Virus record (IMG/VR): IMGVR_UViG_3300045971_000577
Coordinates: 305,146 to 369,145 of that record
Reading direction: 5' to 3' (one strand)
Length of the DNA: 64,000 bases
From: a virus
The translations under genes were made by a program, and so were the position numbers. Below, piece after piece: positions 47,633 through 63,668 of this stretch. The first letter of the stretch is position 1; the number at the start of each line of letters is the position of its first letter. Below the pieces are notes generated by a model, which saw only the letters and a program-made list of their open reading frames with translations, was not told the DNA's origin and ran no database searches.

Positions 47633-47852
47633 GAGTTAGTATCCAATCATCGTCATCTGTTATATCTTCGTAGTCAATATTTTCGGGAGTAAAATCATCC
47701 TGATATCCATTCCTGAACATAGTTACCGCTTCAATTAAATCCAAGGCTTCTCGCTTTGTAAGATACAGCCGTGCATTATTTCGTTCAATCTCAATAATAA
47801 CCGTATTGCCACTGGCCCATTTGATTGTTGTAAGTTTTGACGGGGTTAGCAT
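47625..47852 (-). CDS. Small acidic hypothetical protein
   Basis: 75 residues: an N-terminal beta part (TTIKWASGNTVIIEIERN), a helix (TKREALDLIEAVTMFR) and an acidic tail (YEDITDDDDW). It overlaps the exonuclease-like gene by one base. Function unknown. Confidence 0.62.
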   Translation of the reverse strand: MLTPSKLTTIKWASGNTVIIEIERNNARLYLTKREALDLIEAVTMFRNGYQDDFTPENIDYEDITDDDDWILTHG

Positions 47853-48370
47853 TACTTACCTTGTTTCGTTCTTGCCAACATCTTCAGCAATGCTTCGGCA
47901 TTACCCTTTGCATCATCCACAGGATTGTGCGTGTGCTTTGTTTCACGAAGATGTTTGAATGTGGCGTATAGATCTCGTTCCATGCCCTTGTAGAAAGAAC
48001 CCATATTAGCAGATGACCAACCAAACGGATTACGTCCAAGTTGATGCCAGAAGTAATAATTCATGAAAGCATAATCGAACCCGTTATTATCTGCCCAGAA
48101 AATTGGGCGCTTGCCAGGAATTTCTTTTTGCAACCATGCTTCGAAGTTCTGCATCGCATCCCGCGGGTCAGGAAACTTCATGGTTTGTTCTCGAGAGAAG
48201 CCACTAATTGCGAGAGCTTCAGGAATGTAGATCTCGGAGATAGGCTTCAGTTCAGCGTAAAAGGTTCGCTGAAATCCTGCTTCGACAATGACTGCACCAA
48301 AACAAATCATTGAGTGCATACCAGGACACGGACCGTCGGATTCGATATCTACCATTACATTTTGTGACAT
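47852..48370 (-). CDS. DEDD-type 3'-5' exonuclease (DnaQ/RNase T-like)
   Basis: 172 residues. VMVDIESDGPCPGMHSMICF gives Exo I (D8, E10), FWADNNGFDYAFMNYYFW gives Exo II (D98 region) and THNPVDDAKGNAEAL gives Exo III (H/D). The order and spacing fit a DnaQ-like 3'-5' exonuclease acting on DNA or RNA ends. The gene is first in its operon behind a near-consensus sigma70-type promoter, suggesting early expression. Confidence 0.85.
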   Translation of the reverse strand: MSQNVMVDIESDGPCPGMHSMICFGAVIVEAGFQRTFYAELKPISEIYIPEALAISGFSREQTMKFPDPRDAMQNFEAWLQKEIPGKRPIFWADNNGFDYAFMNYYFWHQLGRNPFGWSSANMGSFYKGMERDLYATFKHLRETKHTHNPVDDAKGNAEALLKMLARTKQGK

Positions 48371-48397: not shown

Positions 48398-48426
48398 ATT
48401 ATACAGCAAATACAAAGAGATGTCAA
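48398..48426 (-). promoter_or_regulatory. Sigma70-type promoter of the exonuclease operon
   Basis: Minus strand: TTGACA (48426-48421), 17 bp, TATAAT (48403-48398); fully consensus. The -35 overlaps the stop codon of the upstream gene. Confidence 0.85.
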
Positions 48427-48788
48427 TACGGAATAATGGTTCCGTTTAGTTTCGAAGCTAGTGTAATGTTTGGAAGAATCAGGAACTGTAGATCAATCTG
48501 ACTACGTGGGAAAGGCTCAAATAGAATTTGATAGATAGATGTTGCTGCACCATACCGTACCATATAGCTTGCTAGGCCAAGTGTCGTAGTCTTATCAAAT
48601 ACTGTGTAGATGATATTGCCTAATCCATTGTTCATTGTGGAGAAATAGTAAACACTAGACCCACCATAATCACCGTAAGGTATAACGGAGTTTGTTTTGA
48701 TTGCATTGATTACCTGAGCCACGTTAGCCGAAATAGCAACTGTATTGTCGGTGGTGCTTACGCCGGTAGATGGATATGGATATTGCAT
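48423..48788 (-). CDS. Hypothetical protein
   Basis: 121 residues, no membrane segment. Tyr/Ser/Thr-rich N-terminus (MQYPYPSTGVSTTDNT), then TVFDKTTTLGLASYMVRYGA. No motif recognised. Its stop codon forms part of the next gene's -35 box. A GATAAATA sequence lies 4 bp upstream of the start, but it also encodes the end of the upstream gene. Confidence 0.6.
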   Translation of the reverse strand: MQYPYPSTGVSTTDNTVAISANVAQVINAIKTNSVIPYGDYGGSSVYYFSTMNNGLGNIIYTVFDKTTTLGLASYMVRYGAATSIYQILFEPFPRSQIDLQFLILPNITLASKLNGTIIPY

Positions 48789-48791: not shown

Positions 48792-49061
48792 TTATTTATC
48801 AGGATCGAGCTTCAGTATACGCTCTTCGATCACCAGTTTTGTTTTGTCCGCACCGACCGCAAGATGTCCAAGCACGTACACCAATCCACCGCATGCAACA
48901 TATGTAAATAAATTACCCACAATCAGTGCGACCAGAATTAACAAGATTCCGAATGCAGAAATAAACCGTCCAGTAGTTGTGGCGGTAGTATGAATTACCC
49001 ACAGCTCGCCAAGATTCATCTTGTTGATCTTTTCAATCAAATCATTCTTTGCATCACTCAC
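48792..49061 (-). CDS. Small membrane protein with two transmembrane segments
   Basis: 89 residues if started at the GTG at 49061, which overlaps the upstream stop by 8 bp. Two hydrophobic helices: FGILLILVALIVGNLFTYVA (about 37-56) and a shorter VACGGLVYVLGHLAVGA. The tail is charged (VIEERILKLDPDK). No family recognised; an inner-membrane host-interaction protein is plausible. Confidence 0.6.
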   Translation of the reverse strand: MSDAKNDLIEKINKMNLGELWVIHTTATTTGRFISAFGILLILVALIVGNLFTYVACGGLVYVLGHLAVGADKTKLVIEERILKLDPDK

Positions 49062-49749
49062 AGATTTCGCCCTTCAGTTTATAGAAATCTAACATCTCAA
49101 AAAATACACCAGGACAGTGTAAAAAATGACATCCTATCTGTTCCTCTAATATATCACGCGGAATACTAGGTACCAGCGATGTATCTTTTACTGCTTGTAC
49201 ATAATACGAAAATAAATCAGATAATGCGACCGGATCCATCCTTACGTTTCTAAAAGTATCAAATCTATATCTATGATTACGCACAATAGAATGTTGTCTG
49301 TATAACACGTGATTAGTAATGAACTCGACTACAGCAGCCTGAAAATCTATTAGTTCATTATTAAATAATATCAAATTATAAACAGATAGATCTTCATACG
49401 CTGCTCGCTCAAATGCATCAAATGGTAAAAATCCTATCCAATCACATCTATTGTCAGAACACATATTGCCTGATAATTTGTTGAACTTTGGGATGACCTT
49501 AGTAACACATTCTGCCATTACCTGCTCAAACATGGAGTTACATTCGAAGCTCCATCCGAAACTAACACGTAGAGATGCATTCTGTTCGATTATTTTCTTT
49601 ATACTCCGATCATCACCGGATTCAGAAGATCTAGGATATAGCCTACGACGATTTAATTGAGATAGTATCGGCCTATGGAGATCAACTATAATGTGATCAT
49701 GAAACCCAACCGGGCATGAAGTTGCTCTTGAAAGAATGAATCGATCCAT
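49054..49749 (-). CDS. Hypothetical protein
   Basis: 231 residues with several cysteine and histidine residues (CSDNRCDW; CHFLHCPGVFFEML) and aromatic-rich helices. No recognised domain. ATG 49749. A hairpin ATCAGATA-TT-TATCTGAT containing GATAAATA covers 49749-49766 at the very start. Confidence 0.6.
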   Translation of the reverse strand: MDRFILSRATSCPVGFHDHIIVDLHRPILSQLNRRRLYPRSSESGDDRSIKKIIEQNASLRVSFGWSFECNSMFEQVMAECVTKVIPKFNKLSGNMCSDNRCDWIGFLPFDAFERAAYEDLSVYNLILFNNELIDFQAAVVEFITNHVLYRQHSIVRNHRYRFDTFRNVRMDPVALSDLFSYYVQAVKDTSLVPSIPRDILEEQIGCHFLHCPGVFFEMLDFYKLKGEICE

Positions 49750-49782
49750 CAGATATTTATCTGATAGATGATTAGTTAGGTG

Positions 49783-49965
49783 TTAGTCAGCTTTACTCAT
49801 CAGACTCCATACCAATAGTGGTATCCACCCAATTATAGTCCACCCGACTAGTAAGTTTACCCATATACACACGGTCTTGTGTTTATGATTTCGTGACCGT
49901 GCAATAAAGGTTGGCAGAAACATTACCAACAACAGTAAAATCAGAACAATGACTTCCCCGAACAT
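49783..49965 (-). CDS. Superinfection-immunity-like membrane protein (T4 Imm-type family)
   Basis: 60 residues with two transmembrane helices. FLPTFIARSRNHKHKTVCIW followed by NLLVGWTIIGWIPLLVWSL is the pattern of the superinfection-immunity family, which includes T4 Imm and many short bacterial and phage proteins. T4 Imm blocks DNA entry from superinfecting T-even phages at the inner membrane. The gene lies downstream of an early-type promoter at 50223-50251, with one small gene between. Confidence 0.8.
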   Translation of the reverse strand: MFGEVIVLILLLLVMFLPTFIARSRNHKHKTVCIWVNLLVGWTIIGWIPLLVWSLMSKAD

Positions 49966-49967
49966 GA

Positions 49968-50147
49968 TTAGCCCTCGTATTCGTCACGCTGAACAATATC
50001 GAAGTAGTCGTAGCATAACACACGATGTCCGTACTTCACTTCAATCTTGCGTGAGTTTGGATCCGTAAAACCGCCGGCAGTTATCTCCACAGTTATCTTA
50101 CACAACTCAACCTCAATGATGCGTTCTATATCTGCTCTTGTCAACAT
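49968..50147 (-). CDS. Small hypothetical protein (59 residues)
   Basis: ATG 50147 to TAA 49968. The sequence starts MLTRADIERIIEVELCKITV and ends YFDIVQRDEYEG; KIEVKYGHRVLCYDYF forms a beta hairpin. It ends 2 bp before the immunity-like gene and shares its promoter. AAGAAAG lies upstream of the start. Function unknown. Confidence 0.62.
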   Translation of the reverse strand: MLTRADIERIIEVELCKITVEITAGGFTDPNSRKIEVKYGHRVLCYDYFDIVQRDEYEG

Positions 50148-50181
50148 TTTGTTCTTTCTTGGCTGTTAGTTTGGTCGGTAT

Positions 50182-50204
50182 AATCGTCAGAAATTCTGAC
50201 GATT
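50182..50204 (-). promoter_or_regulatory. Leader hairpin (perfect 11-bp inverted repeat)
   Basis: AATCGTCAGAA-A-TTCTGACGATT in the untranslated leader between the promoter at 50223-50251 and the 59-residue gene. There is no T-run after it, so an mRNA-stability, attenuation or protein-binding role is more likely than termination. Confidence 0.75.
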
Positions 50205-50215
50205 AAATAGATCTC

Positions 50216-50223
50216 TATTTATA
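50216..50223 (-). promoter_or_regulatory. Late promoter box TATAAATA next to an early promoter
   Basis: Exact T4-type late octamer TATAAATA on the minus strand. It is separated from the early -10 TACAAT by no bases (they share one), so the operon could be expressed both early and late. Confidence 0.45.
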
Positions 50224-50251
50224 TTGTAGCGGCCAGCATGTACATAGTCAA
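50223..50251 (-). promoter_or_regulatory. Sigma70-type promoter of the immunity operon
   Basis: TTGACT (50251-50246), 17 bp, TACAAT (50228-50223) on the minus strand. The -35 overlaps the stop codon of the last array gene. Confidence 0.75.
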
Positions 50252-50541
50252 CCGCCAGGCACCAATCCGTTTGCAAGTCTGAATGCCAGCAGGTCCTCTT
50301 CGTATCGGAATCTAAACTCTAGTGGTGTCTTCTTATGGATACCAAAATAACACCATCTGTCATCTTTTGTACCTAACGTGTGCTTACACCAACTATAGCA
50401 TTCCCTTGCTTTCTTTATTTCAGCCTCTGTTGCCCTACCGTAACCGGTTGCTTCAGTAAATACCGGAGTATTCCACCATGTCCATGTTGAGGTAGTCGGG
50501 GCAAGTGGTGTGACAGGAAGAATATACCTATACGGCATCAT
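50248..50541 (-). CDS. Array paralogue 16 (last gene), FKLRFG-tail family
   Basis: 97 residues. The C-terminal signature is EEDLLAFRLANGL followed by a short VPGG tail. The N-terminal 45 residues are Pro/Thr/Trp-rich and longer than in relatives. The start overlaps the upstream stop by 4 bp (ATGA). The core pattern is helix with Trp/Cys, beta hairpin (WCYFGIHKKTPLEFRFRY), then the signature helix. Function unknown. Confidence 0.75.
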   Translation of the reverse strand: MMPYRYILPVTPLAPTTSTWTWWNTPVFTEATGYGRATEAEIKKARECYSWCKHTLGTKDDRWCYFGIHKKTPLEFRFRYEEDLLAFRLANGLVPGG

Positions 50542-50753
50542 ACGCCGTTAGCCAACCTAAATATAGTTGCATCCTGTGCGGTAGCAAATAGGAATATCCA
50601 GTTCGATGTGTCGTCATGCTTCCACAGATGTCCGTATGAACTTAGATTACATTCACACCAAGAACGAAGTTGACGTAACAATTCGTTCTGTTGTTTATAT
50701 TGTCGATCGGTAAGATTCGTGTTGATATGAACTATATGCCAGGGCGAAATCAT
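50538..50753 (-). CDS. Array paralogue 15, FKLRFG-tail family
   Basis: 71 residues ending ATAQDATIFRLANGV. The middle is NELLRQLRSWCECNLSSYGH (helix) and WIFLFAT (strand). ATGA overlap with the upstream member. Function unknown. Confidence 0.75.
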   Translation of the reverse strand: MISPWHIVHINTNLTDRQYKQQNELLRQLRSWCECNLSSYGHLWKHDDTSNWIFLFATAQDATIFRLANGV

Positions 50754-50971
50754 ACGTTATAAGTTAGTTTGAAGGCCAATGCAGATTCCTGTTCTGAAAT
50801 GATTAGAGCTGTCGGGTAATAGTGGCCTATATCGTCCCATGTGAACCTATGGTCTACTTCATTCATAAACAGCCATGCTCTCATTGCTGCATATCGTTCA
50901 TAGATGGCACGGTTAGTGGTGTTACCCGTGAGTTCAAATACTTTGTGTAATGAAATACATTCTTCGTTCAT
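50750..50971 (-). CDS. Array paralogue 14, FKLRFG-tail family
   Basis: 73 residues ending SEQESALAFKLTYNV. Helix YERYAAMRAWLFMNEVDHRF precedes a short hairpin (YYPTALIIS). ATGA overlap with the upstream member. Function unknown. Confidence 0.75.
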   Translation of the reverse strand: MNEECISLHKVFELTGNTTNRAIYERYAAMRAWLFMNEVDHRFTWDDIGHYYPTALIISEQESALAFKLTYNV

Positions 50972-51183
50972 AATCCAAATCTCAATTTAAACATTAGTGC
51001 ATCTTCATTTCGCATATTTATTCCAGTTGCCCATGGAGCCCATTGCGGATACTTCACAAACGAATATTTAATATTTTGTTCTTTCAGCCAAGCTTCATAC
51101 ACCTTCAGCTCTGCTATGTGCGCCTTTACACGCAACATAATAGGATATGGAAATTGGATAGTAATATTATCGGGCCTAATCAT
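50968..51183 (-). CDS. Array paralogue 13, FKLRFG-tail family
   Basis: 71 residues from ATG 51183 (MIRPDNITIQFPYPIM), which keeps the overlap with the upstream gene to 8 bp. The frame is open to 51231. It ends RNEDALMFKLRFGL, after helix ELKVYEAWLKEQNIKYSF and a short hairpin. Function unknown. Confidence 0.75.
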   Translation of the reverse strand: MIRPDNITIQFPYPIMLRVKAHIAELKVYEAWLKEQNIKYSFVKYPQWAPWATGINMRNEDALMFKLRFGL

Positions 51184-51406
51184 ACTGATATCCTTGTTGG
51201 CATATATCGCCAAAGGCAAGTCTGAACGCAAGTAGGTCTTCTTCGCTATATATTTTCACCAATGCAAGATATGTTTCGCCGTTGATCCATGATACTCCGC
51301 CCTGCGGATCGAGCCAGGCCCTGCCATTGGTTCTAATCCATTCTATCATTTGCTGATATAGCTTAGGATGATTCCAACAACCTACTAGACGTTGATTTAT
51401 TATCAT
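51176..51406 (-). CDS. Array paralogue 12, FKLRFG-tail family with extended C-terminus
   Basis: 76 residues. The signature SEEDLLAFRLAFGD is followed by ICQQGYQYD, a 9-residue extension absent from most members, suggesting loss of the usual stop. Helix LYQQMIEWIRTNGRAWLDPQ lies upstream. ATGA overlap with the upstream member. Confidence 0.75.
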   Translation of the reverse strand: MIINQRLVGCWNHPKLYQQMIEWIRTNGRAWLDPQGGVSWINGETYLALVKIYSEEDLLAFRLAFGDICQQGYQYD

Positions 51407-51639
51407 ATGTTGAACTTTAGTTTGAATGCAATAGCATCCTGATCTTCAAGGAATACACCGACCCGCCTTCCGTCACGTATACCCCATTCTATGTCTGTGC
51501 CAACCGTAGAAAATAGCCATTCCTGTACCTCATACGGAATACCCGAATATGATTGTATGTCCGGGAATGCTACATATATCTTCTGCGGGTTAATTTCAAA
51601 GATATTAAACATCCCTAATCTTGTATCTCTGTATATCAT
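51403..51639 (-). CDS. Array paralogue 11, FKLRFG-tail family
   Basis: 78 residues with the clearest family layout: helix VQEWLFSTVGTDIEWGI, strand RRVGVFLED, signature QDAIAFKLKFNI. ATGA overlap with the upstream member. Function unknown. Confidence 0.78.
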   Translation of the reverse strand: MIYRDTRLGMFNIFEINPQKIYVAFPDIQSYSGIPYEVQEWLFSTVGTDIEWGIRDGRRVGVFLEDQDAIAFKLKFNI

Positions 51640-51863
51640 ACACCGGCCTTTATCCTAAATACAACAATAGATTCCGGATCCGGAAAGATAACCGTTCCAA
51701 TAATGCTGTATATCTCGCCGCCCAACTCCTTTATTATACACCGTTGGGCCGCAGACATTCTTAAATGAATCCATATACTATCGGACAGTGGATAATTAAC
51801 TGTGGCAGGGTTACCGACACAAAGCCTCCACATCTCATTTACTTCAACAAAGTCTGAACTCAT
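51636..51863 (-). CDS. Array paralogue 10, divergent FKLRFG-tail family
   Basis: 75 residues ending DPESIVVFRIKAGV, a diverged signature. It contains SIWIHLRMSAAQRCIIKELG (helix) and IIGTVIFPD (strand). ATGA overlap with the upstream member. Function unknown. Confidence 0.72.
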   Translation of the reverse strand: MSSDFVEVNEMWRLCVGNPATVNYPLSDSIWIHLRMSAAQRCIIKELGGEIYSIIGTVIFPDPESIVVFRIKAGV

Positions 51864-52063
51864 AAATCAAACGTCAATCTAAAAGCAAGTGCATCAGTGT
51901 CGTGGAAGAAAATAATAGCGACCGGAACTTCATCTTCGTATATCCAACGCCAAGGTGACTTACTTTCTTTTGAATATACATTTTCAATCAGCCACGGCGA
52001 ATACATGTAGTATGCATTATTATATTTTTCATCGAAGAGGATATTTAATTTTACTCGTACCAT
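51860..52063 (-). CDS. Array paralogue 9, FKLRFG-tail family
   Basis: 67 residues ending HDTDALAFRLTFDL. Hairpin WRWIYEDEVPVAIIFF precedes it. Unlike its neighbours it is not overlapped by an upstream gene: a decayed member and 25 bp lie in front, with a TATAAT-like sequence 13-18 bp before ATG. Confidence 0.72.
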   Translation of the reverse strand: MVRVKLNILFDEKYNNAYYMYSPWLIENVYSKESKSPWRWIYEDEVPVAIIFFHDTDALAFRLTFDL

Positions 52064-52088
52064 TAGCGTTGCATTATAGTCTTACAAA

Positions 52089-52157
52089 TTATATACTGAA
52101 CGTTAGCTTAAAAGCTAACAATTTCAAATACCGGTTGATAGTACGGTCCGAGATATT
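52089..52157 (-). pseudogene. Remnant of an array paralogue (C-terminal fragment only)
   Basis: In a different frame from the overlapping gene, the sequence reads INRYLKLLAFKLTFSI and a stop (TAA at 52091-52089). LLAFKLTFSI is the family C-terminal signature. No normal start or N-terminal half is left, only a weak GTG at 52157. It appears to be what remains after a deletion that joined the previous member to it out of frame. Confidence 0.65.
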
Positions 52158-52341
52158 TTCCACCAAACTTCAATATGAACGCCGCAGCATCGGGTTCATC
52201 ACGGAATGCATACACCAACATATTATTTAATGCATTTAATGGAACTGCTTGATAATAGGCACGAAAGCAGTTGTCCGTCATCCACCTAGCATGGCTACCA
52301 GAAAATTCAACCTTAACATGATGTTCGAATAGTCTTGTCAT
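52108..52341 (-). CDS. Array paralogue 8, FKLRFG-tail family with read-through tail
   Basis: 77 residues. The signature EPDAAAFILKFGG is followed by 17 foreign residues (KYLGPYYQPVFEIVSF) encoded by the out-of-frame remains of the next paralogue. ATG 52341 overlaps the stop of the GTG-start member by 4 bp. It may have lost function or gained a new tail. Confidence 0.7.
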   Translation of the reverse strand: MTRLFEHHVKVEFSGSHARWMTDNCFRAYYQAVPLNALNNMLVYAFRDEPDAAAFILKFGGKYLGPYYQPVFEIVSF

Positions 52342-52517
52342 CCAAACCTTAACTTATATAGTACGCAATGTTCTTCTTCCATAAACCAAACTAAGCCAAA
52401 GGAGAACTCAATAGGAATGTTGTTGTCCATTGCCCATTCTAGAATTTCGACGCTGGTCAGGTTCGTTATCGCCCCGAGGGGCGCCGAAGCCACAAATTTT
52501 GACAGATCCTGTATCAC
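52338..52517 (-). CDS. Array paralogue 7, GTG-start FKLRFG-tail family member
   Basis: 59 residues from GTG 52517, which overlaps the upstream stop as GTGA, exactly mirroring the ATGA overlaps elsewhere. The protein reads IQDLSKFVASAPLGAITNLT, then VEILEWAMDNNIPIEF, strand FGLVWFME and signature EHCVLYKLRFG. Without it a 170-bp hole would interrupt an otherwise continuous array. Function unknown. Confidence 0.72.
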   Translation of the reverse strand: MIQDLSKFVASAPLGAITNLTSVEILEWAMDNNIPIEFSFGLVWFMEEEHCVLYKLRFG

Positions 52518-52774
52518 ACATTAAACCTTAACTTAAAGGCTAAGGCATCCTCAGAGAATCGAAACATATACACAACCATATTCTTATCTGGGAAGTTATT
52601 TACTATGTACCAATTATACTTGCAATGTTCGTTCAGCCATTCGTGGAGCTCGTCTCTGGTGCTTGCGACTAGGTAACGCTTCGTAGTAACCATATAGTTA
52701 AACGTTTCGAGTAAATGTATCGATTCGCTTACAGAATGTACTTCTACCTTGTCATAAGGTTTTGGATTACTCAT
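52514..52774 (-). CDS. Array paralogue 6, FKLRFG-tail family
   Basis: 86 residues. Helix STRDELHEWLNEHCKYNWYI, strand NMVVYMFRF, signature SEDALAFKLRFNV. ATGA overlap with the upstream member. Function unknown. Confidence 0.78.
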   Translation of the reverse strand: MSNPKPYDKVEVHSVSESIHLLETFNYMVTTKRYLVASTRDELHEWLNEHCKYNWYIVNNFPDKNMVVYMFRFSEDALAFKLRFNV

Positions 52775-52974
52775 AATCCAAACCTAAGCTTTATCATAGT
52801 AGCATATTCGGGATTGGTAAAGACGTAGCTTCCACCATGTTGGTCCCATCCGTTCGCCAATGCCGGCGCGCCGAAAGTTCTCCAACAGTAGATATAGAAC
52901 TCCATTTCTACATCCTGCGGAGACACATAGATCTCCCACCGCTTCCTATCTTCCCTATAAGTCAAAGGTCTCAT
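52771..52974 (-). CDS. Array paralogue 5, FKLRFG-tail family
   Basis: 67 residues ending NPEYATMIKLRFGL. Aromatic-rich middle (FYIYCWRTFGAPALANGWDQ). ATGA overlap with the upstream member. Function unknown. Confidence 0.75.
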   Translation of the reverse strand: MRPLTYREDRKRWEIYVSPQDVEMEFYIYCWRTFGAPALANGWDQHGGSYVFTNPEYATMIKLRFGL

Positions 52975-53162
52975 ACACCAAACTTCAACTTAAAGGCAGT
53001 AATGTTTTCTGGGTTGTTATAGAAGAATAGTTCCCACACCCCAGTCCTCGGGCCACTCAGTTCCCAGTTATAATCTATGCCCTGTGTTAGATTTTCATCC
53101 AGCCATCTCAACATAGCATTAGGCGCATAGCCTACAGCAGAATATATAGGACCGTATATCAT
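52971..53162 (-). CDS. Array paralogue 4, FKLRFG-tail family
   Basis: 63 residues, near the minimal unit: helix NAMLRWLDENLTQGIDYNWE, strand GVWELFFYN, signature NPENITAFKLKFGV. ATGA overlap with the upstream member. Function unknown. Confidence 0.78.
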   Translation of the reverse strand: MIYGPIYSAVGYAPNAMLRWLDENLTQGIDYNWELSGPRTGVWELFFYNNPENITAFKLKFGV

Positions 53163-53377
53163 ACACCAAACTTCAGCTTAAAGGCAACCAAATCTTCCTT
53201 GCTATGCAAGTATACGTTTAGAATTTCGACATGCATCTCTACCTGCCACTCCATACTAACAGAAGTAGAAGATTCTTCAATCCACCTTCTAATGCCATTG
53301 TGTAGTTGCCAAAGGTCACGCTTAATCACGCCACCGACGTATTCCCTATCAGCCACAGGATAACGATACATTGTCAT
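53159..53377 (-). CDS. Array paralogue 3, FKLRFG-tail family
   Basis: 72 residues. Helix LWQLHNGIRRWIEESSTSVS, strand MHVEILNVYLH, signature SKEDLVAFKLKFGV. A 15-bp gap separates it from the upstream member. Function unknown. Confidence 0.78.
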   Translation of the reverse strand: MTMYRYPVADREYVGGVIKRDLWQLHNGIRRWIEESSTSVSMEWQVEMHVEILNVYLHSKEDLVAFKLKFGV

Positions 53378-53392
53378 ATGAGTTCTTTCATA

Positions 53393-53662
53393 CTAGACAT
53401 TAAAAGTCAACTTGAATGCAACAAGGTCTTGATCGTCTTCAAAGTATACAGTCATACCTTCAAATGAGTATCTATCATTTAGTGGATCACTTATGCGTAA
53501 CTTCATTCTAATCTTGTTCTTGAGTGCCCATGCTTCTACTTCATACTTGAAAATCCTTACGCTGATATCTTTACTGTTAGATATAGTATAGGTATGATTG
53601 GGCTTGAACCCGTTATTGAATAGTGCCATTGTAGGCTTTGAACGTGTAGCTGAGTTATTCAT
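53393..53662 (-). CDS. Array paralogue 2, FKLRFG-tail family
   Basis: 89 residues from ATG 53662, which overlaps the upstream stop by one base (TAATG). Strand GMTVYFEDD and signature QDLVAFKLTFNV close a Lys/Arg-rich, longer N-terminal part. Function unknown. Confidence 0.76.
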   Translation of the reverse strand: MNNSATRSKPTMALFNNGFKPNHTYTISNSKDISVRIFKYEVEAWALKNKIRMKLRISDPLNDRYSFEGMTVYFEDDQDLVAFKLTFNV

Positions 53663-53931
53663 TATGTGTGTATTCCCCAAATCAGCCGGAACATTAGCAT
53701 ATCCTCTTCAGTAGCAAAGTATATACGCATAGAATAATATATATTAAACTTTCCGATCAGTATAGGAAATACTTCTGGTGCTGTAGACCAATAATGTTTA
53801 GATTTGGTTTCGCAAAGCCGTTGCATCATTTTCAATACCAGATCTCGAATATCAGATCCGGAAAGTTTTTTCACAATGATGAGATTGTGCAGATAATCAA
53901 CCTGATGTAGATAGGTGGTCTGGTCGTGCAT
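53662..53931 (-). CDS. Array paralogue 1 (first gene), FKLRFG-tail family
   Basis: 89 residues from ATG 53931 (MHDQTTYLHQ), preferred because an upstream in-frame start would lie inside the promoter. It ends FATEEDMLMFRLIWG plus IHT. Helix DIRDLVLKMMQRLCETKSKH. ATG lies only 10 bp after the -10 box, so the mRNA leader is very short or absent. Function unknown. Confidence 0.74.
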   Translation of the reverse strand: MHDQTTYLHQVDYLHNLIIVKKLSGSDIRDLVLKMMQRLCETKSKHYWSTAPEVFPILIGKFNIYYSMRIYFATEEDMLMFRLIWGIHT

Positions 53932-53940
53932 TATGCGACT

Positions 53941-53969
53941 ATAATACAAGATCAACTTGGTCAGATCAA
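53941..53969 (-). promoter_or_regulatory. Sigma70-type promoter of the paralogue array
   Basis: TTGATC (53969-53964), 17 bp, TATTAT (53946-53941) on the minus strand. It is the only clear promoter seen before the 3.7-kb array. A GTAA-type repeat array lies 60 bp further upstream. Confidence 0.65.
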
Positions 53970-54028
53970 GAGGGACCTATACAGTTTTGGTAAAAAATGG
54001 TTGCGCGGCTTGCCACCCTCGTCAAAAT

Positions 54029-54118
54029 GTTACATCTCTTACAAATCTGTGTGCTGACTGGGATTTTTACGAACTGTTACAACTGTTGCATTTGTTACGT
54101 TTCTTACACCTTTACTGG
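54029..54118 (-). repeat. GTAA/GTTAC repeat array A
   Basis: On the minus strand: GTAAAG, GTAAGA, GTAACA, GCAACA, GTAACA, GTAAAA at 8-10 bp steps, then after a gap GTAAGA and GTAACA followed by TTTTGACG. The outermost box includes the stop codon of the DUF4314-like gene. It carries the same boxes as the early promoters but no good -10. Confidence 0.75.
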
Positions 54119-54331
54119 TGCCTCGCCGTTGACTATCCATTGATCAACTGACGCCACGAGGCTAAGCGTTCGCCCACTGTCCCACTGCACAGCCACGTGC
54201 CACTGTCCCAGCACATGCCGTACGTCCAGCACCGTACCCGTTGACCATGGTGGTACGGGGTGGGGGTCGGGACCCATGCCAAGCAGGGTAATGCGTTGAC
54301 CTACGCGGGCGGGTGGAGTAAGCTGCATCAT
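54104..54331 (-). CDS. DUF4314-like small protein, probably leaderless
   Basis: 75 residues from ATG 54331 (MMQLTPPARVGQRITLLGMG). VGQRITLLGMG, then PHPVPPWSTGTVLDV and HVAVQWDSGRTLSLV match the DUF4314 pattern, a short beta-barrel-like protein found in phages and bacteria with unknown function. ATG starts 7 bp after the -10 box, so no ribosome site can be transcribed; an in-frame start further up would lie inside the promoter. GTAA arrays flank the gene on both sides. Confidence 0.75.
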   Translation of the reverse strand: MMQLTPPARVGQRITLLGMGPDPHPVPPWSTGTVLDVRHVLGQWHVAVQWDSGRTLSLVASVDQWIVNGEAPVKV

Positions 54332-54337
54332 GTGTAT

Positions 54338-54366
54338 ACTATAGCGCACACCACCCTACACGTCAA
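54338..54366 (-). promoter_or_regulatory. Early promoter (DUF4314-like gene)
   Basis: TTGACG (54366-54361), 17 bp, TATAGT (54343-54338). GTAACA begins exactly 10 bp upstream of the -35 and GTAAGC 10 bp beyond that. Confidence 0.82.
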
Positions 54367-54369
54367 TCA

Positions 54370-54435
54370 CTGTTACATATGCTTACACCTGTAAGCACCT
54401 GTAAGCAAACGTAAGCAGATGTAACAACGGTAAAG
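54370..54435. repeat. GTAA repeat array B with internal inverted symmetry
   Basis: Plus strand: GTTACATATGCTTAC, then GTAAGC, GTAAGC, GTAAGC, GTAACA, GTAAAG at steps of 10, 10, 10 and 9 bp. The left half mirrors the right (TGTTACAT.TGCTTAC against GTAAGCAGATGTAACA). The left half is the upstream region of the early promoter at 54338-54366. Confidence 0.8.
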
Positions 54436-54494
54436 GTCTCGCACTGTGCCCGTCATACCTTGGTGACGCTATGAGGCAACGGTGAGCAAACGAA

Positions 54495-54513
54495 AGGGGC
54501 GTTCGCCGCCCCT
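54495..54513 (-). terminator. Intrinsic terminator
   Basis: Minus strand AGGGGCG-GCGAA-CGCCCCT followed by TTCGTTT. It lies 20 bp after the stop of the gene at 54534. Confidence 0.75.
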
Positions 54514-54533
54514 TGTCTGTACCCGCGCTGGTC

Positions 54534-54737
54534 TTACTTGATGCTGACGAGGACACCGTCCTTCAGCGTGCCCGTGGCGTACCACTTATGGGGTTGCGGG
54601 TAGTGCGGGCCTTCCAGGGACACCTCGCCGTCTTTGGGGCAGGGGAACGGTCCCGGGCTGTGGCAACGGACTTGCTTGCCATCAGCAATGGCACGCTTCA
54701 CTTCGGCCTTGCTCTTGAAGTTGGTATCGGTGTACAT
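54534..54737 (-). CDS. Small early protein
   Basis: 67 residues: MYTDTNFKSKAEVKRAIADG, then VRCHSPGPFPCPKDG, EGPHYPQPHKWYATG and a beta end DGVLVSIK. I recall similar short phage proteins of unknown function. AAGGA before ATG; own promoter and own terminator. Confidence 0.75.
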   Translation of the reverse strand: MYTDTNFKSKAEVKRAIADGKQVRCHSPGPFPCPKDGEVSLEGPHYPQPHKWYATGTLKDGVLVSIK

Positions 54738-54763
54738 GGTGCATTCCTTGTTGCGATGTATGT

Positions 54764-54792
54764 ATTATGCAGCGTGGTGCGCTTGCTGTCAA
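54764..54792 (-). promoter_or_regulatory. Early promoter
   Basis: TTGACA (54792-54787), 17 bp, CATAAT (54769-54764). GTAACA 10 bp and GTAATA 20 bp upstream of the -35. Leader contains CATCGCAACAAGGA. Confidence 0.88.
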
Positions 54793-54924
54793 CCACTGTT
54801 ACATCTTATTACAGCTCGTGCCCGCCACACCAGACCAACCACCAAGTGCGGAAGTCCTCACACCCTGTCAGCGCTCCCTCCCGCATGTACGAGGCGTAGA
54901 AAGCTGGGCTTGCTTGGTGGATAC

Positions 54925-55140
54925 TCACATATCCCCGGGCAGGTAGTTGCAGCGGTTGCGGTAGCACTTGCCGTCCCACTCCGCCACGCTGATCGTATAG
55001 CCGATGCTGAGGAAGAACATCGCTTCGCCCATTGCCGCTGCTTGCCCAATCTCCATGCTGCGGTCTGGGTAGGCTGCGTCGTAGCTGACCGGGTCCCGGA
55101 TGCTGATGCGGGGCTGGGTCACATCGTATGTGGTGCGCAT
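54925..55140 (-). CDS. Small early protein
   Basis: 71 residues from ATG 55140 (MRTTYDVTQPRISIRD), with AAGGAG upstream. The middle helix QAAAMGEAMFFLSIGYTISV is followed by WDGKCYRNRCNYLPGDM with two cysteines. Longer frames upstream run through the promoter and are not genic. Function unknown. Confidence 0.72.
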   Translation of the reverse strand: MRTTYDVTQPRISIRDPVSYDAAYPDRSMEIGQAAAMGEAMFFLSIGYTISVAEWDGKCYRNRCNYLPGDM

Positions 55141-55168
55141 GATTGCTGCTCCTTGTTGCGATGTTGTT

Positions 55169-55197
55169 ACTATAATGCAACGAACAGGGGTTGTCAA
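55169..55197 (-). promoter_or_regulatory. Early promoter with -35 palindrome
   Basis: TTGACA (55197-55192), 17 bp, TATAGT (55174-55169). The -35 is centred in a perfect 23-bp inverted repeat (55183-55205, AACAGGGGTTG-T-CAACCCCTGTT). GTAACA 10 bp upstream. Confidence 0.88.
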
Positions 55198-55225
55198 CCC
55201 CTGTTACATCTGTCTCGCGTGCTGC

Positions 55226-55513
55226 TCAGCAGACCTTGGCGAAGTAATGCACGACCACAGTGTGCATCGTCTGGGTCTGCCCGTCGGCGTACACGGTGCC
55301 GGGTTGCACTTCACATTCCGCGTCGGGTGAGGCGCACAAATTACGTTCCAGCCGTTGCTTGATTCCCACGGCGCGGTAGGCGTTGTGCTGCTGCGGTGAC
55401 ATGCAACGGAACACAGTCGCGCCGCTTTCCTTCGTGACCAGCACGGCCACATCCGAGGCCTTGATTCCTTCCATCTTGTACGCGAGCAGGATGATTTGGA
55501 TGACGACTTGCAT
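55226..55513 (-). CDS. Small early protein
   Basis: 95 residues. A hydrophobic N-terminus (MQVVIQIILLAYKMEGIKAS), then beta-rich ASDVAVLVTKESGATVFRCM and a helix HNAYRAVGIKQRLERNL. Three cysteines. AAAGGA before ATG. Function unknown. Confidence 0.72.
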   Translation of the reverse strand: MQVVIQIILLAYKMEGIKASDVAVLVTKESGATVFRCMSPQQHNAYRAVGIKQRLERNLCASPDAECEVQPGTVYADGQTQTMHTVVVHYFAKVC

Positions 55514-55552
55514 GTTGTTTCCTTTGTGTTGCTGCGTTGTTGCAGTGTTTAA

Positions 55553-55581
55553 ACTATAACGCAGGTTGAATGCTTATGCAA
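55553..55581 (-). promoter_or_regulatory. Early promoter
   Basis: TTGCAT (55581-55576), 17 bp, TATAGT (55558-55553). GTAACA 10 bp and GTAAGT 20 bp upstream of the -35. Confidence 0.82.
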
Positions 55582-55620
55582 GCACTGTTACATTTACTTA
55601 CAAGCTGCCGGCCGGCATAA

Positions 55621-56125
55621 GCCTCGAGGTTAAGGTTAAAGACCTTAGCCCAGTGTCTAGCCCTAGTAGAGGCTTTTGCAACTTAGACTAATTTTTAGAT
55701 CGCAGCTTTAAGTCTGCTGCCGGCGAGCCTCGTGTATGCTCAAGGTCAACCGCGGTTACGTTATGAGGCTTATCGCAATAAGTCTTAGATTCTTGTTGAC
55801 CTGCCCGGACTTTTGCGATAAAATGACATTTATTGCTTGCGCAGAATGACCTACGGCTCTACACGAAAAATAGCCTCACAATGCAAAAGGCAACTACAAG
55901 TGGTCTATAGATCAACGTGTGAGGCTTTGCTGCAAAGCCCTAGATTCTTAGATCAGTTGTCTGTAAGCCTCACAGACGCGTTTTAAGATCACAAGCGGTC
56001 GCTTGCTCAGCTCTTGAGGCTTTGCGGGCAGAGCTCTGTCTGTGTGGTCAAGTGCGAGCAAACCCCTGTAAGCCTCACTTGTGGCCCAGTTACTGGGCAA
56101 AGACCTAATCTTTAGTTAGCGAGGC
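55621..56125. repeat. Array of five GCCTC/GAGGC inverted-repeat elements
   Basis: Elements 55621-55673, 55727-55769, 55873-55925, 55967-56020 and 56072-56125; lengths 53, 43, 53, 54 and 54 bp. The 55873 element has a perfect 8-bp outer stem (GCCTCACA/TGTGAGGC). The interiors differ but often contain GATC or GGTC. Confidence 0.75.
55796..55824 (+). promoter_or_regulatory. Possible rightward promoter into the repeat region
   Basis: TTGACC (55796-55801), 17 bp, TAAAAT (55819-55824), plus strand. It points through three GCCTC/GAGGC elements towards the hairpins at 56142-56201; no gene lies on this strand, so any product would be an RNA. It lacks the GTAACA box. Confidence 0.5.
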
Positions 56126-56141
56126 AGCGGTGGTCAAACGA

Positions 56142-56163
56142 CTGGGCACCCGTAAGTGCCCAG
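56142..56163. repeat. Strong hairpin
   Basis: CTGGGCAC-CCGTAA-GTGCCCAG, 8-bp perfect stem with a 6-base loop, no T-run. It is next to the terminator at 56184. Confidence 0.75.
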
Positions 56164-56183
56164 TGCTCAAAAGAACCGCTTGT

Positions 56184-56201
56184 AGGGGCGTTTAGCCCCC
56201 T
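56184..56201 (-). terminator. Intrinsic terminator (GC hairpin)
   Basis: Minus strand AGGGGGC-TAAAC-GCCCCT, just past the stop of the gene at 56206. The following T-run is poor. Confidence 0.6.
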
Positions 56202-56205
56202 TGCC

Positions 56206-56433
56206 CTACCAGGGCTCGCACATATTGGGAAACGTGTTCGTCTCCTCCAGCACCGTCAACGCCCGCGCCGCTGCTGCGTAGGCCTCGTCTTCCGTGTCCC
56301 AGATCGGCGCGCTGGCGCAGTTGTTGGCGAGGTATTCCTGGCCCGGGTCGCCAGCAAATGTGGAGAAGCACGAACGCCACTTGCCGTTGGCTGCCTGTTC
56401 GGGCGCGCTGACTTCGGTGCGGATCTTGATCAT
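56206..56433 (-). CDS. Small early protein
   Basis: 75 residues: MIKIRTEVSAPEQAANGKWR, a Cys, then IWDTEDEAYAAAARALTVLE, which looks like a beta-sheet plus helix. AAGGAG before ATG. Function unknown. Confidence 0.72.
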   Translation of the reverse strand: MIKIRTEVSAPEQAANGKWRSCFSTFAGDPGQEYLANNCASAPIWDTEDEAYAAAARALTVLEETNTFPNMCEPW

Positions 56434-56459
56434 GCTGTGCTCCTTGTTGCGATGTTGTT

Positions 56460-56488
56460 ACTATAACGGAGTTGGGAGGCTCCGTCAA
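56460..56488 (-). promoter_or_regulatory. Early promoter
   Basis: TTGACG (56488-56483), 17 bp, TATAGT (56465-56460). GTAACA 10 bp upstream; leader CATCGCAACAAGGAG. Confidence 0.87.
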
Positions 56489-56500
56489 GCACTGTTACAT

Positions 56501-56701
56501 CTATTTCTTCACAGCGTCAGCAACGGCTTCGTAGGAGTCAGTCGCCACCTCGATGGTCTTGTCCGTCGCCACCGAGATCGCCTTCGAGGCTTTCTTCACC
56601 TCGGACTGGTTGTCCTTGTAGAGGATGATGCCTTGGCCCGCCAGCAGCAGGGCAACGATGCTGGCGATGGCGCCCACAAACACATTCTTGAACGTCTTCA
56701 T
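56501..56701 (-). CDS. Small single-pass membrane protein
   Basis: 66 residues. NVFVGAIASIVALLLAGQGI (about 6-25) is a transmembrane helix or signal anchor; the rest is a charged amphipathic helix (EVKKASKAISVATDKTIEVA). The topology suggests an inner-membrane protein with a periplasmic or cytoplasmic helical tail. AAGGA before ATG 56701. Confidence 0.72.
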   Translation of the reverse strand: MKTFKNVFVGAIASIVALLLAGQGIILYKDNQSEVKKASKAISVATDKTIEVATDSYEAVADAVKK

Positions 56702-56728
56702 CTGTATTCCTTAAGTTGCAATGTCACA

Positions 56729-56757
56729 ATAATAGCTGCATACGGGCCGTCTGTCAA
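56729..56757 (-). promoter_or_regulatory. Early promoter
   Basis: TTGACA (56757-56752), 17 bp, TATTAT (56734-56729). GTAATA 10 bp and GTAAGC 20 bp upstream; the upstream gene's ATG-TAA end lies within the box. Confidence 0.86.
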
Positions 56758-56763
56758 CCCTTA

Positions 56764-56943
56764 TTACATCTGCTTACACCACTTCTCTTCCTCGCACAAC
56801 AGCTCGTCGTCAGTGGCGTCGTCATTGAGGTAACGCTCACCGTCTTCAAAATCGCCTTCCTCACCGTCAGCTTCGTACTGTTCACGCATTGCGTGGATGA
56901 TGCGCTCGGCCTTCAAGGCGCGCTCTTGCCTGGTGAGTGCCAT
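56764..56943 (-). CDS. Small acidic early protein
   Basis: 59 residues from ATG 56943 (MALTRQERALKAERII), AAGGAG upstream. Basic helix first, then a strongly acidic half (EADGEEGDFEDGERYLNDD) and a CKQM end. Its last codons, ATG TAA, form part of the next promoter's upstream box. Function unknown. Confidence 0.72.
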   Translation of the reverse strand: MALTRQERALKAERIIHAMREQYEADGEEGDFEDGERYLNDDATDDELLCEEEKWCKQM

Positions 56944-56970
56944 TGTTGGCTCCTTGCTGTTGATGTATGT

Positions 56971-56999
56971 ATTATGCAGGCTGGAACAGGGGCTGTCAA
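56971..56999 (-). promoter_or_regulatory. Early promoter with near-palindromic -35 region
   Basis: TTGACA (56999-56994), 17 bp, CATAAT (56976-56971). GTAACA 10 bp upstream. AACAGGGG-x-TGTCA-x-CCCCTGTT surrounds the -35, like the promoter at 55169. Confidence 0.88.
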
Positions 57000-57005
57000 C
57001 CCCTG

Positions 57006-57116
57006 TTACATCTTTCCAGTGACACGCTTCCACAGCTGGTGGAAGAAGCGCCTCACGCGGTTCTGCATCAGCTCGGCTGCGATTTCGAGGCGAAACTTCA
57101 TGTAGTCAGTGTTCAT
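57006..57116 (-). CDS. Very small basic early protein (36 residues)
   Basis: ATG 57116 to TAA 57006. The sequence starts MNTDYMKFRLEIAAELMQ and has basic helix RVRRFFHQLWKRVTG. It begins 1 bp after the stop of the upstream gene, and its own final ATG-TAA is part of the next promoter's GTAACA box. An amphipathic helix binding nucleic acid or membrane is possible. Confidence 0.55.
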   Translation of the reverse strand: MNTDYMKFRLEIAAELMQNRVRRFFHQLWKRVTGKM

Positions 57117-57117
57117 G

Positions 57118-57315
57118 TTAGGCCTGCTGGATGTGTTGCGCGACGATGCGGGCGGCGCAGTCCTCGCCCTGGGCCATGTCGATCGCGCCCTGCTCCACGA
57201 GGTTGTAGCACAAGTCGCCGCCGTCGTAGAAGCCGTACTGCTCCTCCACAATCTTGTCGACCTTCTCCGAGAAGTCGTGCATGACTGCGTGCTGTGCCAT
57301 TGTGGTGCGGGGCAT
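57118..57315 (-). CDS. Small acidic early protein
   Basis: 65 residues: MPRTTMAQHAVMHDFSEKVD, VEEQYGFYDGGDLCYN, helix GEDCAARIVAQHIQQA. AAGGAG before ATG. Function unknown. Confidence 0.72.
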   Translation of the reverse strand: MPRTTMAQHAVMHDFSEKVDKIVEEQYGFYDGGDLCYNLVEQGAIDMAQGEDCAARIVAQHIQQA

Positions 57316-57341
57316 GCTGTGCTCCTTGTTGCGATGTATGT

Positions 57342-57370
57342 ATTATGCGCGTAGAAGCAGCAGTTGTCAA
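57342..57370 (-). promoter_or_regulatory. Early promoter without the upstream box
   Basis: TTGACA (57370-57365), 17 bp, CATAAT (57347-57342). The -35 contains the stop codon (TGA) of the upstream gene; no GTAACA box. Leader CATCGCAACAAGGAG. Confidence 0.85.
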
Positions 57371-57612
57371 CCGTAAATCTTCAAGGCCTCATCCATGACG
57401 ATCGTCTCCACACCGCCATCCAGAGGCATCAGGTGGTGCTGCTGGAACAGGACTTCCACGCCGGCGGCCAGCAGCACAGCGGGCATGAGCTTGTACAGAG
57501 GCTGCTGGCCGTTATCCATTTCGCACATCAGGATGTGAGCAACGGTGCGGCACGACCCCACTGGGCAACGGGCGTCACCCAGAATCATTACACGTTGTCC
57601 TATTGCGAGCAT
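57367..57612 (-). CDS. Small early protein
   Basis: 81 residues from ATG 57612 (MLAIGQRVMILGDARC), AAGGAG upstream. The start recalls a small beta-barrel (IGQRVMILGD, VAHILMCEMDNGQQPLYKLM), somewhat like the DUF4314-type protein at 54104, followed by hydrophobic AVLLAAGVEVLFQQHHLMPL. Function unknown. Confidence 0.7.
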   Translation of the reverse strand: MLAIGQRVMILGDARCPVGSCRTVAHILMCEMDNGQQPLYKLMPAVLLAAGVEVLFQQHHLMPLDGGVETIVMDEALKIYG

Positions 57613-57637
57613 GTTTGCTCCTTGCTGCGATGTGTGT

Positions 57638-57666
57638 ACTTTATTATATAGTGGCTCCAGTGTCAA
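57638..57666 (-). promoter_or_regulatory. Early promoter
   Basis: TTGACA (57666-57661), 17 bp, TAAAGT (57643-57638); an overlapping TATAAT lies at 57648-57643. GTAACA 10 bp and GTAAGC 20 bp upstream of the -35. Confidence 0.78.
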
Positions 57667-57693
57667 GCACTGTTACATCTGCTTACGCCTGCA

Positions 57694-57779
57694 CTGCCTC
57701 ATTCATCGGTCCAAGACCATTGAGCCACTACATGCGAGGCTGCTGCTGCCTCATTCATCGGTCCAAGACCATTGAGCCA
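57694..57779. repeat. 34-bp direct repeat pair
   Basis: Copies at 57694-57727 and 57746-57779, identical, each holding CGGTCCAAGACCATTGAG. The first copy and the following GAGGC (57736-57740) also make a 45-bp GCCTC...GAGGC element. It lies in the divergent gap between minus- and plus-strand early genes. Confidence 0.85.
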
Positions 57780-57831
57780 ACGCGGTGAGACCGCGTGACG
57801 ATCCGCCAGATGTAACAAGGTGTAACAACGG

Positions 57832-57859
57832 TTGCATTGATGCGCAGTGGTGTTATAGT
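57832..57859 (+). promoter_or_regulatory. Rightward early promoter (outer)
   Basis: TTGCAT (57832-57837), 16 bp, TATAGT (57854-57859), plus strand. GTAACA begins about 10 and 20 bp upstream of the -35, as in the leftward promoters. Confidence 0.7.
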
Positions 57860-57865
57860 TATGAC

Positions 57866-57991
57866 ATGGAGACAGCAGTGCAACAGCAAGCAAACAAGCA
57901 AAACTGTTACACTTTAGTTGTTGTCCAAAGCGCCCCAAAGAGTTATAGTTTAGTCACTGCAACACACGCTGCAAAGCAGCAAGAAAGGTAG
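57866..57991 (+). CDS. Doubtful 41-codon frame or leader peptide
   Basis: ATG 57866 to TAG 57991, beginning METAVQQQANKQNCYTL. It starts 7 bp after the outer promoter's -10, like the leaderless early genes, but the inner promoter for the next gene lies inside it. It could be a leaderless peptide or a chance frame. Confidence 0.25.
   Translation: METAVQQQANKQNCYTLVVVQSAPKSYSLVTATHAAKQQER
57921..57949 (+). promoter_or_regulatory. Rightward early promoter (inner)
   Basis: TTGTCC (57921-57926), 17 bp, TATAGT (57944-57949), plus strand, 45 bp before ATG 57995. Confidence 0.65.
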
Positions 57992-57994
57992 ACC

Positions 57995-58534
57995 ATGGAC
58001 AAGGGAATCCGCCCGTACGTGAACGCCAAGTTCATCGAGCTCAACGCCCAGCGCAAGGCGGGCACGCTGACCAACACGCAGTTCCGCAAGAACGTGATGT
58101 GCGACGCGATGGAAGCGTTTGGCATCACCCTGGCGAGCGCCGCGACGCACTACAACCATGCGTTCCAGGCGGTGAAGGCGGCGACACCGACGGAAGTGGA
58201 AGGCCTGGGCCGCCCCGACGACAAGAAGGGCGGGCGCAAGCGCAAGGAAGTCGCAGCCCCGACGGTGGCCAGCGTCATCCCCGTGGACCCGGCCGCGCTG
58301 CTGCAAGGGCTGCTGAATGCCCCGGCTGCGGTGCAGGTGGAGACGGCGCAAGCCGTGGAAACGCCCGCAGCCGACCCCAACGACGCCGGCGAGACGGGCG
58401 AAGTGCAGACGGTGTTCAACGTGTGCAAGAAGTCCGACGGCAGCGTGGTGGCAGAAGGCGTGAGCCTGGAAGAAGCCAAGGCGCTGGTGGAAGCGGCGGC
58501 CAAGGCCAAGAAGGCCAAGCTGTACTGGGTCTAA
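57995..58534 (+). CDS. Early protein with MDKGIR domain and LEEAK C-terminal domain
   Basis: 179 residues. The N-terminal domain (1-90) has MDKGIRPYVNAKFIELNAQ, FRKNVMCDAMEAFGITLASAATHYNHAFQ and a basic GRPDDKKGGRKRKE end. It is shared with the 142-residue protein at 61642. After an Ala/Pro-rich linker, the C-terminal 45 residues (VFNVCKKSDGSVVAEGVSLE) form a second small domain. The helical N-terminus with basic tail suggests nucleic-acid binding. One of only two genes on the plus strand here; terminator follows. Confidence 0.78.
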   Translation: MDKGIRPYVNAKFIELNAQRKAGTLTNTQFRKNVMCDAMEAFGITLASAATHYNHAFQAVKAATPTEVEGLGRPDDKKGGRKRKEVAAPTVASVIPVDPAALLQGLLNAPAAVQVETAQAVETPAADPNDAGETGEVQTVFNVCKKSDGSVVAEGVSLEEAKALVEAAAKAKKAKLYWV

Positions 58535-58549
58535 GCACCCAAGGTGGGA

Positions 58550-63666: not shown

Positions 63667-63668
63667 GC

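Follow-up and report, generated by a model that had tools for sequence, protein, structure and literature searches.

We describe an array of 16 consecutive small genes, all belonging to one protein family, on the minus strand at 50248-53931 of a 64,000-nucleotide stretch of viral DNA (the window). The window covers positions 305146-369145 of the 369,145-base IMG/VR virus record IMGVR_UViG_3300045971_000577 and forms the terminal part of a 369-kb T4-like jumbo-phage contig (its own genome, G000), whose capsid and portal region has, in parts, about 74% DNA identity to Pseudomonas jumbo phages of the PA5oct group. We speculate, putting the chances at about even, that these genes form a multigene family evolving by birth and death and encode early accessory proteins, each of which would probably bind a different host or phage partner. 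Different arrays occur in otherwise near-identical viruses, which suggests a fast-changing toolkit, probably for different host bacteria.

An initial annotation of the window, made from the sequence alone, had proposed 16 consecutive minus-strand genes with variants of a C-terminal FKLRFG signature. All 16 open reading frames (ORFs) are present, and a single family profile matches every one of them (lengths in amino acids, aa):

53662 to 53931, minus strand: array gene 1, 89 aa from ATG
53393 to 53662, minus strand: array gene 2, 89 aa
53159 to 53377, minus strand: array gene 3, 72 aa
52971 to 53162, minus strand: array gene 4, 63 aa
52771 to 52974, minus strand: array gene 5, 67 aa
52514 to 52774, minus strand: array gene 6, 86 aa, also modelled with AlphaFold2 (AF2)
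52338 to 52517, minus strand: array gene 7, 59 aa, GTG start
52108 to 52341, minus strand: array gene 8, 77 aa, with a C-terminal extension
51860 to 52063, minus strand: array gene 9, 67 aa
51636 to 51863, minus strand: array gene 10, 75 aa, the weakest member
51403 to 51639, minus strand: array gene 11, 78 aa, orthogroup covering three other arrays
51176 to 51406, minus strand: array gene 12, 76 aa, orthogroup covering two other arrays
50968 to 51183, minus strand: array gene 13, 71 aa, ortholog in G009 (51%)
50750 to 50971, minus strand: array gene 14, 73 aa
50538 to 50753, minus strand: array gene 15, 71 aa, ortholog in G008 (38%)
50248 to 50541, minus strand: array gene 16, 97 aa, orthogroup covering five arrays

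Variants of the signature occur in all 16 genes, as claimed, but in genes 8, 12, 16 and 1 further residues follow it. Gene 1 had been started at TTG 53955; ATG 53931 is the more likely start because a promoter candidate, TTGATC-17-TATTAT, ends at 53941. Position 53377 and ATG 51183 are the more likely starts of genes 3 and 13. The genes are indeed mostly joined by 4-bp overlaps (11 of 15 junctions, ten ATGA and one GTGA), while genes 1 and 2 meet in TAATG, genes 12 and 13 overlap by 8 nt, and gaps of 15 bp and 44 bp separate genes 2 and 3 and genes 8 and 9, respectively. Across eight arrays, 4-nt overlaps are found at 72 of 135 junctions. Translational coupling at such overlaps is established (PMC6728339), and we infer that the array is one translationally coupled operon.

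The family extends far beyond chance expectation. Profile A1, built from the 16 array genes, recovers all 16 in their own genome (E 4e-21 to 1e-8) and gives about 11 weaker matches elsewhere in it, each of them on the strand of the array. After iteration of the profile over DNA collected for comparison, 113 of 6,847 ORFs score as members at E<1e-3, compared with none at E<0.1 (best 0.3) among reversed or shuffled versions of the same ORFs. The family consensus, of about 61 residues, comprises a strand, a helix with a nearly invariant tryptophan (EIIEWLEENVG), a Trp/Phe strand, a strand ending in Phe, and the helix EEDALAFKLKFG; the strongest profile column is W, at 5.2 bits. From 98 aligned members, AF2 predicts for array gene 6 a beta-alpha-beta-beta-alpha domain preceded by an extra N-terminal part (predicted local distance difference test score, pLDDT, 79.8; predicted template modelling score, pTM, 0.67). 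For array gene 10, the prediction is confident for the C-terminal beta-beta-alpha half only.

These results revise the earlier view of what the members have in common. The common part had been placed in the last 25 residues, yet it is the whole domain of about 61 aa, including the Trp helix and the Trp/Phe strand. A fold core, a dock or a degradation tag had been suggested as the common element, of which the fold core is retained and the other two are not. FKLRFG forms the last helix of the predicted domain and scattered members run on past it, so it is not a detachable tag for docking or degradation; further, its Phe and Leu residues are conserved together with the Trp and Phe of the first helix and the strands. 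The contrast drawn between a conserved end and a strongly differing front holds in that the front is more diverged at the DNA level, but individual members have recognisable orthologs in other phages, so their fronts are not unrelated.

As the initial annotation had supposed, the family is undescribed, with no relative in Pfam, PHROGs, NCBIfam, PADLOC or the Protein Data Bank (PDB). Rather than falling into different known families, the members are all matched by one profile and by no known family. Ten array proteins matched nothing in Pfam (best E 0.08) or PHROGs (best E 0.01), 104 members matched nothing in PHROGs (best 0.0087), and none of 81 members was matched in PADLOC or NCBIfam. The sequence profile found no match among PDB sequences (best E 0.11), and Foldseek found none of significance among PDB structures (best E 0.31). 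Compared with the ferredoxin-like order beta-alpha-beta-beta-alpha-beta, the domain model stops after the fifth element, and Atx1/ATOX1 and EF-G domains appear in Foldseek at non-significant E and template modelling (TM) scores of 0.36-0.48. In BFVD, the best matches are uncharacterised phage proteins with probabilities of up to 1.00, but E-values of at least 0.01; the top match is the Atu_ph07 protein A0A2L0UZT1 (probability 1.00, TM 0.65, E 0.013). Single array proteins used as queries found nothing in viral contigs and one non-significant match in phages. No description of the family, its array locus or its leader was found in the open-access literature, most subscription journals lying outside the search.

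Among 17 named phages, members are present only in PA5oct (four) and Atu_ph07 (eight), and are absent from T4, KVP40, RaK2, CBB, 121Q, XacN1, P-SSM2 and others of that set; weak first-round matches in 121Q and KVP40 disappeared with the better profile. The expectation that other arrays could be found by the C-terminal end was borne out: a DNA pattern for F-K-L-[KR]-F-G-x-stop overlapping ATG, plus the ATGA overlap, turned up further arrays in IMG/VR. The same pattern gave 12 matches in bacterial genome contigs, none encoding a member by profile; these are chance matches and thus provide no evidence of the family in bacterial genomes. Whole contigs carry 31 (G001), 45 (G004), 15 (G006), 21 (G008) and 21 (G009) members, and the window's own genome carries 33, about 17 of them scattered outside the array. 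More contigs of the same capsid clade have arrays or scattered members, and a 347-kb contig with 79% capsid identity has one member. In G014 (362,810 bases), several small clusters take the place of one large array, at about 4.5-5.7, 40-44, 97, 245-247, 314-319 and 342-345 kb.

In the six phages first compared, the array has the same orientation and is closely followed downstream by a 120-aa gene and an RNase_T-type exonuclease of 172 aa. The corresponding neighbours in the window are as follows:

49054 to 49749, minus strand: 231-aa gene downstream of the array, of no family; orthologs beside some other arrays, 44-51%
48423 to 48788, minus strand: 121-aa conserved anchor gene, of no family; 60-73% in other array loci
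47852 to 48370, minus strand: RNase_T/Rv2179c-like exonuclease of 172 aa, conserved anchor; 73-88% identity

A search with the exonuclease gave 14 loci, to which the window, G001 and G004 were added. At this locus ten phage contigs carry an array, with sizes of 31, 27, 21, 21, 16, 13, 8 and 6 members, and with 3 in each of two contigs near the contig end. Arrays whose leader end is sequenced range from 6 to 31 members, and the array of 21 in G009 may be truncated at the start of the contig, where its head lies. No array is seen at the four loci with an exonuclease of at most 59% identity, nor at three others with 73-81%, one of which has almost no upstream sequence. A phrog_4074 gene (E 2.5e-8) is inserted in two arrays, at L079:5654-6010 (G008) and L078:993-1382 (G009). 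These two genes were considered as family members and are not; phrog_4074 was also matched in the control genome of Bacillus subtilis. General family scans of ten neighbouring or embedded proteins, which covered part of the neighbours, found no recombinase and no helix-turn-helix family, the latter being the kind of gene (Aca) that marks anti-CRISPR operons.

A dedicated leader stands at the head of the array. It and the putative promoters at either end of the array are:

53970 to 54067, minus strand: array leader, about 98 nt, non-coding, a conserved element occurring once per genome
53941 to 53969, minus strand: putative sigma-70-type array promoter TTGATC-17-TATTAT (consensus scan, 9/12)
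50223 to 50251, minus strand: putative promoter of the next operon, TTGACT-17-TACAAT (consensus scan, 10/12)

The leader has three blocks at nearly constant spacing (GTCAGC, GGCAAGCC and CTATAGGTCCCTC) and lies upstream of arrays in seven phages, from which model R1 was built. R1 has one match in the 369-kb own genome, at 53970-54067 (E 3.4e-20), directly before the array promoter candidate, and its full-length matches in 17 other records lie at array heads only. In G014 the leader, at 247.7 kb, heads the cluster beside the exonuclease. In G027, which is absent from R1, a leader was predicted at the array head (E 1e-12), preceding a lipoprotein-like gene and then an array of at least 19 members. 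This gene (MLRIILLTILLTGCATKFEKG...), from about position 1660 of locus L236, separates the leader from the first member recognised in the array. PA5oct and Atu_ph07, both without arrays, have no leader match, and the lack of a leader in G009, G013 and G037 is expected because their arrays reach or near the contig end. One profile, the same neighbours and the same leader thus mark one paralogous family with its own array locus.

No RNA structure was predicted for the leader and Rfam gave no match over 49500-54500, so we read it as a DNA element, perhaps a promoter/operator or a recombination site. CTATAG-type sites are at chance level in the whole window, and only the extended element is specific. 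The array promoter is a weak call, since promoter-like sites in the scan (21) barely exceed those in shuffles (16.2 +/- 3.2); it is plausible that one promoter serves the whole array.

Turnover of the array is rapid relative to the slow core of these genomes. Across the window, G001, G004 and G009 (loci L092, L097 and L140), the major capsid protein keeps 96-97% identity, whereas array orthologs, defined as reciprocal best matches better than any paralog and scoring at least 45 bits, share a median of 44.5% identity and exist for 39 of 149 members. A core that is frozen beside an array that changes fast suggests that the array is one of the sites at which the phages adapt. Many ortholog pairs are saturated at silent sites; in pairs with measurable synonymous divergence, which are the best-conserved ones, the ratio of non-synonymous to synonymous substitution rates (dN/dS) is about 0.16-0.6. 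For the exonuclease and the 120-aa gene it is about 0.08 in the closest phage pair. The array genes are under purifying selection, but it is relaxed or their evolution accelerated. That they are nearly neutral, functionless paralog debris is consequently very improbable: low paralog identity and variable number would suit such debris, but ortholog dN/dS is below 1, open frames and overlaps are maintained in eight arrays, ortholog order is conserved and the leader is kept.

Between paralogs, average similarity is higher over the last 75 nt than over the preceding 90 nt. Genes 8 and 19 of G001, for example, are 88% identical over the last 75 nt and 26% over the preceding 90 ungapped, or 49% in the 5′ part when aligned with gaps. 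This suggests gene conversion or recombination at the 3′ ends, with an unequal rate along the gene contributing.

In arrays whose leader is sequenced, ortholog-bearing members lie far from it (mean relative position 0.69 versus 0.44, within-array permutation p<5e-5), and the mean relative position is 0.87 without the two closest arrays. The bias holds singly for the window, G008 and G001. Ortholog order is collinear by 31:3, and all 11 recognisable recent duplicate pairs fall among the first 19 of the 31 G001 genes, on the leader side. The array is therefore likely to be polarised relative to its leader. One explanation is that paralogs are added or generated beside the leader and old ones kept distally, the leader itself participating, in a protein-gene analogue of integron or CRISPR (clustered regularly interspaced short palindromic repeats) growth. 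The unique conserved leader, the distal orthologs and the leader-side duplicates all favour this idea, which we nonetheless regard as unlikely. The bias is not significant within the two most similar arrays, and in the held-out G027 array, cut at its far end, orthologs occupy positions 3, 4, 8 and 17 with poorer collinearity. Besides the coding 3′ end no common boundary sequence was seen, and no recombinase was found among the neighbours scanned. Further, duplication with stronger constraint on distal genes explains the bias without any special mechanism.

The resemblance to integron cassette and CRISPR arrays is one of polarity only, in that the leader end is fixed and units common to several lineages lie at the far end. 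Unlike those systems, the array has no recognised integrase or Cas protein among its scanned neighbours, no repeats or attC-like sites were seen, although no dedicated attC model search was made, and all of its units are one protein family, consistent with duplication. It seems doubtful, then, that the array is a protein-coding counterpart of such leader-ordered arrays, in which variants would arise leader-side and give each phage its own combination of binding domains. If the leader did drive array growth, it would give viruses a novel route to evolving a repertoire.

Dense ATGA coupling and a fold core common to all members could also indicate heteromeric assembly, with the members as subunits of one or a few complexes that pack via the common core and use coupled translation for stoichiometry. 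Indeed, the products of a coupled gene pair are often subunits of a heteromeric complex (PMC10666635). Such assembly is unlikely: its subunit number would have to range from 6 to 31 in phages whose capsids are nearly identical, orthologs are lacking for most members, and scattered singletons would have to work alone. Varying copy number in itself argues against a fixed complex. Charge bears on a further alternative, that the proteins mimic DNA or serve as nucleic-acid-like decoys for host nucleases or CRISPR effectors. They are small, numerous and variable phage proteins and some are very acidic, but isoelectric points (pI) run from 4.1 to 10.1 (median 6.3 in the window's array and 5.2 in other arrays) with no family-wide acidity. 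This spread argues against uniform mimicry as the function of the family, and we give the alternative as a whole very little credence.

We therefore return to a birth-and-death family of accessory proteins. The array would be a multigene family confined to one clade, within a T4-like jumbo-phage lineage, and each of its products would consist of one small globular beta-alpha-beta-beta-alpha domain of about 60-90 aa. It would be expressed as one operon behind the dedicated DNA leader of about 98 nt, the ATGA overlaps coupling translation. In this view, genes are duplicated in tandem, undergo conversion at their conserved 3′ ends, diverge rapidly and are lost; most of this turnover would take place on the leader side, while purifying selection would keep each protein functional. 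The products may be accessory early proteins in which the same scaffold addresses a different host (or phage) macromolecule in each member, so that the array would serve as a changeable toolkit for host takeover or counter-defence. Early timing is suggested because the array is co-directional with, and adjoins, a block of genes with repeated promoter elements at 54-64 kb.

Several observations weigh against this proposal. The proteins have no similarity to known anti-defence, host-takeover or defence proteins in Pfam, PHROGs, PADLOC or NCBIfam. The residues conserved across the family look structural, with no sign of a common binding site or activity. A housekeeping role would fit at least several of the scattered members, which are single, slowly evolving genes in the company of nucleotide-metabolism genes. 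The scattered member G000:134808-135074 (L011:12809-13075) is 63-100% conserved in 33 contigs and occurs at about 50% identity in eleven PA5oct-group records; it and G000:130456-130755 (L011:8457-8756) are 74-75% identical to their G004 counterparts, far above array conservation. Both adjoin genes resembling MazG, deoxycytidylate (dCMP) deaminase, ClpP and a lipase-like hydrolase, and the PA5oct ortholog of the former has neighbours of this kind too.

Phages of the PA5oct group (Wroclawvirus; PA5oct, Paride, Callisto and MIJ3) have the same domain family as the array. The PA5oct members gp209, gp210 and gp237 (YP_010679005.1, YP_010679004.1 and YP_010678977.1) are annotated 'hypothetical protein', and gp210 is about 50% identical to a scattered gene of the window's own genome, both lying near dCMP deaminase, MazG-like and exonuclease genes. 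The group differs in having single genes only, without array or leader. In the Agrobacterium phage Atu_ph07, the eight profile matches are likewise small proteins (e.g., AUZ95034 and AUZ95037), but scattered and without a leader. The cultured relatives PA5oct, Paride and Callisto carry conserved single members and are open to experiment.

Viral multigene families of accessory proteins are, as a broad kind, already known elsewhere. In African swine fever virus, for example, the multigene families consist of paralogs that share one fold, lie in tandem, differ in number between lineages and turn over fast, and the array resembles them in all of these features. It differs in that the virus and proteins are unrelated and the array is borne by a phage, as a coupled operon with a unique leader; a role in host interaction would be our extrapolation here. 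SPO1-type host-takeover modules are clusters of many small co-directional early genes, mixed and unrelated. The array similarly comprises many small co-directional genes, but these are one paralogous family, and its early expression is only presumed. Most jumbo-phage genes are without a function; more than 100 of them can now be given one family, a predicted fold, a locus and a unique element that may be regulatory or recombinational.

Upstream of the leader, the minus-strand block at 54100-64000 has a G+C content of 0.52-0.63, compared with 0.40 in the array and 0.43 at positions 1-48000. A promoter/leader element (TGTAACA..TTGAC... and TGCATAATACATACATCGCAACAAGGA) recurs there as about twelve near-repeats, seemingly one for each small gene; the genes of this block are probably individually promoted, early and of different composition. 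An exact 34-bp direct repeat lies within it at 57694-57727 and 57746-57779, with a start-to-start distance of 52 bp. Elsewhere in the window, three related HNH-homing-endonuclease-like proteins, judged by eye, lie among head and tail genes (6599-7162, 7476-8117 and 16096-16806). PKD-like and Gly-rich proteins are dispersed among the structural genes (457-1029, 1422-2288 and 14355-15521), the last two of which start similarly (MSVNLNSIFTSGRVV and MSTSLNNIIIDGRVI). A structural protein of 3,191 aa at 32940-42515 has many degenerate beta repeats of the GSGY..xPTVTI type.

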